64,000 bases of DNA from Solwaraspora sp. WMMD792. Lineage in GTDB: Bacteria; Actinomycetota; Actinomycetes; Mycobacteriales; Micromonosporaceae. A program made the position numbers and the translations under genes. The stretch lies in contig NZ_JARUBH010000009.1 in assembly GCF_029626105.1 (NCBI RefSeq), forward strand, positions 7,124,011 through 7,188,010. Direction: 5' to 3'. Below the pieces are notes generated by a model, which saw nothing but the letters and a program-made list of their open reading frames with translations, was not told the DNA's origin and made no database searches. The number at the start of each line of letters is the position of its first letter. The stretch's first letter is position 1. Below, piece after piece: positions 39,976-42,219 of this stretch.

Positions 39976-42219
39976 CTATCCGGCCGTACAGGATCTGATC
40001 TGGGGCCGGGCCCAGGAGTTGCCGTTGAACATGGTGGTGAAGCCGAAGGTGTTGCCGTTGCCGTTGGCGCGGATGGTCATCACGTTTCCACTGGAGTCCC
40101 AGGTGGGGTTGCCGTTCCAGGTGGCCGAGATGCGCTGTGGCGGGGTGATCGCCACCACGACGGTCCAGTTGCTGGTCCCGGTGACCGTCACGGAGGTGTT
40201 GTAGCGGTCGCCCCAGACCTGACCGGTCGACATCGTCGCGGTGCAGGTCCCCGGGCCCGGCGTCGTCGGGTCGGGGGTGGGCGTCGTCGGGCTGGGCGTC
40301 GGGGTGGGAGGTGGCGTCGGCTGATCCGGCAGCAGGGGACAGCTGTTGCGGTACCCGGCGATGCCGCTGGAGTCCATCAACGGGCACAGGAACTGGGTGT
40401 ACCGGGAGTCGCTGTCGACGAAGGTCTTCAGCCAGGGGATCAGGATCCGCATTTCGAGGTTGTTGGGCCGGGTCGGGAAGAGGTGGTCGGCACCGACGAA
40501 CTCCATGTAGGCGCGCTCCGTCGAGGACGGCAGAGCGTTGTACAGGTCGGTGACGTACGACGGGGCGACCACGGTGTCGTTGGTGCCGGCGATGAGCAAC
40601 GTCGGCACCTGGTTGTTGGCCGGGGTTCCCGACGGCATGAACGGGGTGAGCCCGATCGCGGCCTTGAGGGAGGACCGCGTACCGGCCGCGTGGAGTGCCC
40701 CACCGCCGCCCATCGAGTGGCCGATCACCGATTGACGACTGGCGTCGATCCGGTCTCGGACCGGACTACTGTTGGTGAGCCAGTCCAGAGCGGCGAGCAA
40801 CTGGGTGCCCCGGGCGGTGTCGAAGTCGTTGGTGCTGTTGGTCTCGACGCCGATGACGACGAAGCCGAAGGACGCCAACCAGTGGCCCATCCAGGCTTCT
40901 TCGTCGGCGAACCGCGCGGTGTAGCCGGGCACGATCGCAACCGCACCGAAGGTGCCCTGGCTGGTGTCGGTGGGGTAGTAGATCGATCCGCCGTTGAATC
41001 CGTTGCCGGGGGACACGCTCATCTCGGCGGTGGCGAAGGTGCCTCGGTTGGCGGCCACGCTGTCGCGGGTGGGGTCCGGGCCGCGCTGGTACGGGTTGCC
41101 GCCCGGCGGTGGGCTGGGTGACGGGCTGGTGGTGGGCGACGGGCCGCTGGTCGGCGAGACCGACGGGGACGGGCTGACCGGGGTGCCGCCGGCGTTGAGT
41201 GCGGACAGGGTCGCGTCGTACGCCTGCTTCTTGTTGCCGTTGTTGTCGAACAGTAGTGGGGTGCCGTAGCTGCGCCAGGAGTCGCTGTCGCGGATGCCCC
41301 AGACGGTGATGCCGGTGCAGCGGGCGATGGCGAGGCAGTCGTTGACGACGCCGCGGAAGGCGTTGGCCTGGCTGCTGCCGGAGCCTTCGATGTCGAGTTC
41401 GGTGATCTGTACGTCGACGCCGAGGGCGGCGAAGCTGGACAGGGTGGTGCGGTAGTTCGAGGGGTAGGGGGACTGGGAGTTGAAGTGTGACTGCAGGCCG
41501 ACGCAGTCGATGGGTACGCCGCGTTGTTTGAAGTCGCGGACGAGGTTGTAGGCGGCCTGGGTCTTGGCCCAGGACCAGTTGTCGATGTTGTAGTCGTTGT
41601 AGCAGAGTTTGGCGCCGGGGTCGGCGGCGCGGGCGGCGCGGAAGGCGGCTTCGATCCAGTCGTTGCCGGTGCGTTGGAGGTTGGAGTTGCGGCGGGCGCC
41701 GGAGTTGCCGTCTTCGAAGGCTTCGTTGACGACGTCCCAGGAGTGGATTTTGCCTCGGTAGTAGGAGGCGACGCGGGTGACGTGGTTGAGCATGGCCTGG
41801 CGGAGGGCGTTGCCTTCCATCTGTTGCATCCAGCCGGGTTGCTGGGAGTGCCAGGCGAGGGTGTGGCCGCGGACGGCCATGCCGCGGGAGAGGGCGTGGT
41901 TGACGATGCGGTCGCCGTTGGTGAAGTTGAACTGGTTCTGTTGTGGTTCGGTGGCGTCGAGTTTCATCTCGTTTTCGGCGGTGACGCTGTTGAACTCCCG
42001 GTTGAGGATGTTCACGTAGGTCGAGTCGCCGAGTTTGTTGGCGGCGACGGCGGTGCCGAAGTAGCGGCCGGACTGGGCAGCGGCCGCCCCCAGGGTGGCC
42101 TCGTCGGCGTGTGCCGGCGTGGTCGCAGTCAATGCGGCCACGGCCGCGACGAGCACGGCCGCGGCGGCCGACAGCCCGAACGCCAGACGGCGTCCGACGG
42201 GTCTTGCCATGGGATACAT
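39976..42219 (-). CDS. Secreted fusion: GH10 xylanase, PET-hydrolase/cutinase-like esterase, CBM
   Basis: A 747-residue exported protein. Signal peptide 1-38. GH10 domain about 40-342 with acid/base E166 ([10 protein letters not shown]) and nucleophile E274 (QITELDIEG). A Ser/Pro linker (345-374) joins a second catalytic domain, about 375-632, that closely resembles actinobacterial cutinases and PET hydrolases: [16 protein letters not shown], oxyanion Y433 in VPGYTARF, S502 in [13 protein letters not shown]548 in [11 protein letters not shown]579 in GADHLF, and C612/C627 in YTQFLCP...YRNSCP. Phe527 replaces the usual subsite Trp. A Pro/Thr linker leads to a CBM2-like module (C659-C744). Likely cleaves xylan and its ester or cutin links. 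ATG 42219 follows GAAGGGAAGG. Two operator types lie upstream. Confidence 0.9.

Follow-up and report, generated by a model that had tools for sequence, protein, structure and literature searches.

A gene of Solwaraspora that joins a GH10 xylanase, a PETase-like esterase and a CBM2b-like module is predicted to encode a bifunctional hemicellulase

Chains that join a xylanase to an esterase are already known, and in bifunctional enzymes of the XynY/XynZ type a GH10 domain is combined with a CE1 feruloyl esterase. The natural role of PETase-family enzymes is largely open, with cutin and suberin being the usual guess. Here, we describe a gene in a 64,000-nucleotide stretch of DNA from the soil-type actinobacterium Solwaraspora sp. 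WMMD792 (hereafter the window; its genome is G000), the product of which resembles the XynY/XynZ type in placing a GH10 domain, an esterase and a binding module in one probably secreted chain but differs in that its esterase belongs to PF12740 instead of CE1. The fusion esterase shares with Thermobifida-type cutinases and IsPETase the features that we take to be characteristic of them (fold family, catalytic triad, opening motif and C-terminal Cys pair), whereas they have Trp where the fusion has Phe527. The solved enzymes 9xv6 and 9xv7 ("C3 cluster PET hydrolase") and 9xv5 ("Lipase") are of the same Phe/Tyr type and 66-69% identical over the domain but, unlike the fusion, were solved as single domains, without GH10 in the chain. 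A protein of Microtetraspora niveoalba (L068) has the same three-part layout, GH10-CE4-CBM2b, but its esterase is a polysaccharide deacetylase (PF01522). Further, the partial text of PMC12455559 (ACS Catal. 2025) places CBM13-bearing PET hydrolases, with PET activity measured, on one tree branch and proposes that their natural target may be cutin or suberin lying close to carbohydrates; the word "xylan" occurs 0 times in the main text. These enzymes are, like the fusion, CBM-bearing members of the PETase family but, in that partial text, are tied to cutin/suberin rather than to xylan. In the open-licence PMC literature, as represented by partial texts, engineered CBM-cutinase fusions exist and a natural xylanase-PETase fusion was not found, which is weak evidence of absence; it appears that the PETase-family partner is new.

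The open reading frame of the fusion encodes 747 amino acids with no internal stops. Its start codon at 42219 is preceded by GAAGGGAAGG, which is common to all four genomes that carry the fusion, and a GTG further upstream, at 42249, is an alternative candidate. The gene and its parts are arranged as follows.

39976..42219 (-): whole gene, GH10 xylanase - PETase-like esterase - CBM2b (ORF, Pfam, orthologues)
42106..42219 (-): signal-peptide-like start, residues 1-38 (read by eye)
41203..42090 (-): GH10 catalytic domain, residues 44-339 (PF00331)
41104..41202 (-): Pro/Ser/Thr-rich linker, about residues 340-372 (read from the sequence)
40336..41097 (-): PF12740 PETase-like esterase, residues 375-628, with S502/D548/H579, Y433, F527 and C612/C627 (Pfam, alignment)
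40249..40335 (-): second Pro/Thr-rich linker, about residues 629-657 (read from the sequence)
39979..40248 (-): CBM2b-like module, residues 658-747, with W669, R672 and W701 (phmmer against the PDB)

The esterase is thus flanked by a xylan-cutting module and, probably, a xylan-binding module, and the signal-peptide-like start suggests that the protein is probably secreted. The first-pass annotation had proposed a single polypeptide of GH10, esterase and CBM, and the domain searches bear this out: PF00331 matched residues 44-339 with 375.5 bits (cut-off 22.1), and PF12740 matched residues 375-628 with 279.6 bits (cut-off 28), both far above cut-off. The GH10 domain is closest to Streptomyces-type xylanase structures in the PDB search (e.g. 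1e0v, E 6.1e-153), and Glu-166 (within WDVVNEAF) and Glu-274 (within ITELDIE) line up with the Glu residues of S. lividans XlnA (1e0v) that we take to be its two catalytic ones. The NCBIfam model NF041944 (bifunctional xylanase/feruloyl esterase) matched residues 53-279 only, with 153.2 bits against a cut-off of 1200. By the searches of Pfam, NCBIfam and the PDB, the second module is a PETase-family domain and not one of another esterase family. Its nearest structure is 9xv6 (E 1.3e-118, 68.9% identity); NF051441, bis(hydroxyethyl) terephthalate hydrolase, gave 308.1 bits against a curated cut-off of 520, and no acetyl-xylan or feruloyl esterase family scored above cut-off in the Pfam search of the fusion protein. 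The triad Ser-502/Asp-548/His-579, the oxyanion Tyr-433, the Cys pair Cys-612/Cys-627 and the opening motif were all found in place, and every residue number given in the first-pass annotation (E166, E274, S502, Y433, D548, H579, F527, C612 and C627) is correct. The Ser, Asp, His and oxyanion Tyr are retained in all three other fusion orthologues. The esterase domain was also modelled from 8 sequences, but the prediction reached a mean pLDDT of only 50.3 and was set aside.

The C-terminal CBM of the first-pass annotation relates, by phmmer against the PDB, to family 2b xylan-binding domains (1xbd, E 5.8e-15; 1e5b, E 8.9e-14; 1heh, E 2.8e-12), and the solved structures that stand closest to it are xylan-binding domains from xylanase D of Cellulomonas fimi. 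We conclude that the module is family 2b-like and predict that it is of the xylan-binding type. There was no Pfam CBM match on the module, and PF00553 was unlisted at a maximum E of 10, a search in which the HMMER filters drop most weak matches. An Arg beside the first surface Trp of a CBM2b domain marks the xylan-binding rather than the cellulose-binding orientation. The W-x-D-R motif is conserved in the module (W669-G-D-R672), as is Trp-701, and the Arg of the motif is Gly in 1e5b in the printed alignment, a change which presumably moves binding of that domain from xylan to cellulose. Related modules end the GH10 proteins of Lentzea (L055) and Virgisporangium (L060), a GH30-family protein of Virgisporangium and the GH10-CE4-CBM2b protein of Microtetraspora, in which the CBM is 65% identical; a gene for a glucuronoyl esterase, which lies where the L060 contig ends, matches the module in part. 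The window itself holds another such module, which matches at 43% over the stretch 635-742 and gives CBM_2 19 bits, under the cut-off, in the following gene.

5199-6428 (+): GH11 xylanase (252.9 bits) that ends in a related CBM2-type module; the fusion lies some 34 kb away

To place the esterase domain, we surveyed 61 genomes of the genus, family and order for relatives at E <= 1e-88. Nine of the 61 genomes were positive, with 11 loci (4 fusions and 7 unfused copies). The first-pass annotation had noted Phe-527 at the position of the substrate-stacking Trp of the classical cutinase/IsPETase type, and the alignment confirms this: the Trp is absent. The Phe is not unique to the fusion protein, however, and Phe or Tyr at this position marks a clade in the sequences compared: it occurs in 10 of the 11 survey loci (the remaining one, L138, is unaligned there), whereas Trp occurs in all 9 other esterase copies of the genus. 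Further, 76-164 residues follow the catalytic domain in 11/11 survey loci, compared with 0-4 residues in the 9 Trp-type copies (extension in 11/11 versus 0/9; Fisher p 6e-6, which is overstated because the rows are related). The 9 Trp-type copies all come from the genus; the wider search gave only close relatives of the fusion esterase. The extensions, where examined (G003 excluded), are of the CBM13/ricin, CBM2 or CBM35/6 type. Beyond the survey, the extension rule is looser: the domain is followed by 154-160 residues in L035, L036, L040 and L041, all with Phe/Tyr, and by 132 in L092, where Gly takes the Trp position, but by only 2, 19 and 3 in L043, L070 and L077, respectively. In a tree of 25 esterase rows, a fully supported branch parts 19 non-Trp rows from 6 Trp-type rows, and the two Trp-type copies of the window's genome share 47.6 and 53.5% identity with the fusion esterase domain. 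We infer that the Phe/Tyr clade corresponds to the CBM13 branch of PMC12455559, the two having been set together by description and not by sequences.

Several unfused members of the clade lie beside genes for plant wall degradation. The set found through GH10 comprised the 72 loci of a peptide-pattern scan, 10 of which have GH10 and GH62 in one ORF. A PETase gene was present at all five GH10-GH62 loci of Micromonosporaceae (L035, L036, L040, L041 and L043), followed at one of them by a PHB-type esterase with CBM13, and a PETase match was found at none of the five of Streptomycetaceae (L078, L080, L085, L088 and L090); nor was there a PETase in the 12 kb around the GH10-GH62 gene of the window's own genome (L008). 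Among the seven unfused survey esterases, two adjoin GH10 (that of G014, with GH62, and that of G026, with a PHB-type esterase). Given the 7 GH10 genes of the window's genome, chance alone would put GH10 there in about 1.7% of loci, so that P(>=2) is about 0.005 by this rough calculation. Some unfused relatives lie near GH10-CBM13-GH62 genes. Of the solved enzymes, 9xv5 matches the G014 gene beside GH10-GH62 in 253 of 258 residues, and the 9xv6 stretch is identical (257/257) to a G025 gene with a CBM35/6-type module beside GH53. That G025 esterase (L139, on G025:C187) is near GH53, a LacI-type regulator and CE2-type and GDSL esterases that bear CBM35/6-type modules, surroundings that look like a polysaccharide-use locus. 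The second copy of G009 lies alongside two CBM13-bearing esterases, and the Streptomyces copy L070 adjoins an RGL11 rhamnogalacturonan lyase. Among the neighbours scanned, no gene for a wall-degrading enzyme was near three of the seven unfused survey copies (the second of G000, that of G003 and the first of G009) or near two of the three non-survey loci (L077 and L092, the third being L070). A single clade of the 11 xylanase-linked esterases was rejected (p-AU 9.4e-9, with L043 a long branch); the simplest account of the tree is that linkage to xylanases arose more than once. An origin of the fusion by the joining of neighbouring Micromonospora genes was considered and dropped, the esterase tree rejecting a single xylanase-linked clade.

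Judging from domain content and gene linkage, we consider it likely, at a probability of roughly 0.72, that the fusion is a secreted bifunctional hemicellulase in which a wall or xylan esterase is tethered beside GH10 and CBM2b. The CBM2b-like module would dock the chain on xylan, the GH10 domain would cleave the xylan backbone, and the esterase, held on flexible linkers, would hydrolyse esters linked to or next to the bound xylan, so that each activity may open substrate for the other. Candidate esters are hydroxycinnamoyl-arabinoxylan, xylan-lignin or neighbouring cutin/suberin-type esters. We favour a bulky ester, aromatic or acyl, over simple acetyl, since terephthalate esters are substrates of known members of the family, and the company of GH62 also speaks for bulky wall esters. 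Against the bifunctional reading count the unfused copies with no wall-degrading gene among the neighbours scanned, the GH10-GH62 genes of Streptomycetaceae and of the window's own genome that have no PETase nearby, the position of the fusion outside a CAZyme cluster, the absence of an above-cut-off match to acetyl-xylan or feruloyl esterase families, and the tie of the CBM13 branch to cutin and suberin in PMC12455559. The first-pass annotation had suggested action on cutin- or ester-linked hemicellulose, and this suggestion is strengthened by the xylan-binding 2b type of the CBM and by the arabinoxylan genes beside unfused relatives. PET hydrolysis, if present, would probably be a by-product of the open site. 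More tentatively, and with rather less confidence than for the fusion itself, the Phe/Tyr PETase clade as a whole, solved PET hydrolases included, may consist of esterases linked to wall polysaccharides and so amount to a carbohydrate-esterase family that lacks only the name; the fusion would point to arabinoxylan esters as the main target, and part of PETase activity may be promiscuity of hemicellulose esterases. The fusion suggests that this PETase-like branch naturally acts on esters of the plant cell wall, and a natural chain of xylanase, esterase and CBM, together with the proximity of several unfused relatives to genes for arabinoxylan and pectin breakdown, opens the natural role of PETases to direct test; wall-degradation loci would be a place to seek new polyester hydrolases. 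In the partial text of PMC13234336, on mangrove-soil microcosms, all twelve putative PETases under the strictest criteria came from the lignocellulose treatment, and the parts of PMC12455559 and PMC13234336 that bear on the matter are both consistent with a plant-wall role.

A cutinase or suberinase, in which the esterase would cut aliphatic polyester only while GH10 and CBM2b anchor the chain and clear the wall, overlaps in part with the bifunctional hemicellulase and is a serious possibility, although we would put it below even odds. The esterase fold family includes cutinases, members of the clade also lie beside pectin-type genes (GH53 with CE2, and RGL11), and cutin/suberin is the target proposed, in the partial text of PMC12455559, for CBM13-bearing PET hydrolases. 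However, the Trp of the classical cutinase is Phe/Tyr here, the genomes with the fusion already have Trp-type copies without an extension, and the GH10-GH62 enzyme of the neighbouring genes acts on arabinoxylan.

An acetyl-xylan esterase is unlikely. The PETase domain would then replace the CE4 domain of the Microtetraspora protein and strip O-acetyl groups; the layout equals GH10-CE4-CBM2b, and there is weak similarity to AXE1, but the AXE1 score on the esterase is under the cut-off (19.7 bits against 21). Further, an acetyl esterase would not usually have the open, aromatic-lined site of the PETase family.

With respect to distribution, a search for the same architecture, as the first-pass annotation had advised, found full-length fusions in three more genomes of the genus, that is, in 4 of 7 with the window's own (G000, G001, G002 and G006), and none in the other 3. 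The orthologues are 97, 92 and 89% identical to the window protein, and the flanking DNA is shared in all three, indicating one chromosomal place; the fusion is therefore neither chance nor an accident of assembly. No GH10 was found in the ORF of the seven unfused clade members of the 61-genome survey, and none of the 72 loci of the exact-peptide pattern scan of genome contigs, which may miss records close to the window's genome, had GH10 and PETase in one ORF. It looks as though the fusion is confined to the genus so far, in what was searched. Over 913 nt, the DNA that encodes the fusion's GH10 domain shares 99.9% identity with the GH10 of a separate gene of the same genome.

G000:C9:1134698-1137235: GH10-GH62 paralogue, the interdomain module of which looks ricin-type by eye

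In translation, the fusion and GH10-GH62 proteins of G000 differ in the signal peptide and downstream of GH10. The corresponding pairs are 99.4% (G001), 95.6% (G002) and 96.3% (G006) identical within each genome, whereas the fusion GH10s of G000/G001 are only 84-87% identical in DNA to those of G002/G006 (G000 versus G002, 84.3%; G000 versus G006, 86.7%). The contrast is smaller in close genomes, the fusion GH10s of G000 and G001 being 98.3% identical. The PETase parts are more similar between genomes than the GH10 parts (G000 versus G002, 91.9%; G000 versus G006, 91.1%), and a single clade of the four fusion GH10s was rejected (p-AU 1.5e-9, in a tree of 10 rows with some inner branches open). 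Assembly error is unlikely because the GH10 pairing is present in four genomes, two of them single contigs. The simplest account would be recurrent gene conversion between the fusion and the GH10-GH62 gene, confined to about the GH10 domain; by these comparisons the PETase part is outside the concerted evolution, and GH10 alone evolves with the paralogue. Such exchange implies active recombination at these genes and, with the absence of the fusion from 3 of 7 genomes, could speak for neutral shuffling of modules at repeat-rich Pro/Thr linkers without joint function. We regard this as quite improbable, as the full architecture and intact triads persist in four genomes, the distant ones at 84-87% GH10 DNA identity, and the pairing of xylanase and PETase recurs, as neighbours, in another esterase clade. 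Finally, a dedicated hydrolase of plastic polyesters is scarcely credible, even though the nearest solved relatives are called PET hydrolases (9xv6, 68.9% identity), since the partner modules are xylan-directed and PET is recent, yet the fusion is common to diverged genomes.

The fusion lies outside any CAZyme cluster, and its neighbours read, from their translations, as katG, a Fur-type regulator and folD. Upstream of the gene, a scan for sigma-70 promoters found none by its rule, and none of five regulator-type patterns occurred upstream of the six genes read. Two features stand out there.

42493..42512 (-): inverted-repeat element CTTCCGGAAGTTTGCCGGAA, directly before TTGACG
42395..42460 (-): nearly invariant stretch of the 5' leader of the fusion gene (4 genomes compared)

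The inverted repeat is identical in G006 and differs by 1 base in G001 and by 2 in G002; it occurs once in the window at <=3 mismatches, whereas 100 shuffles averaged 0.00 occurrences, and is a candidate operator. The leader stretch is conserved even at what may be synonymous sites within a small frame beginning ATGGATGCAGGG. It was considered as an RNA element and rejected: Rfam matches nearby were weak, below gathering and not over the stretch, and it folds no better than shuffles (z 0.89). Separately, a ZMP/ZTP riboswitch (RF01750; 46 bits, gathering threshold 39) lies at 42767-42846 (+) and precedes the folD-like gene at 42794-43723. The two overlap, which suggests that the true start of the folD-like gene is an in-frame ATG further in. 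This folD-like gene has a second relative in the genome, 47% identical.
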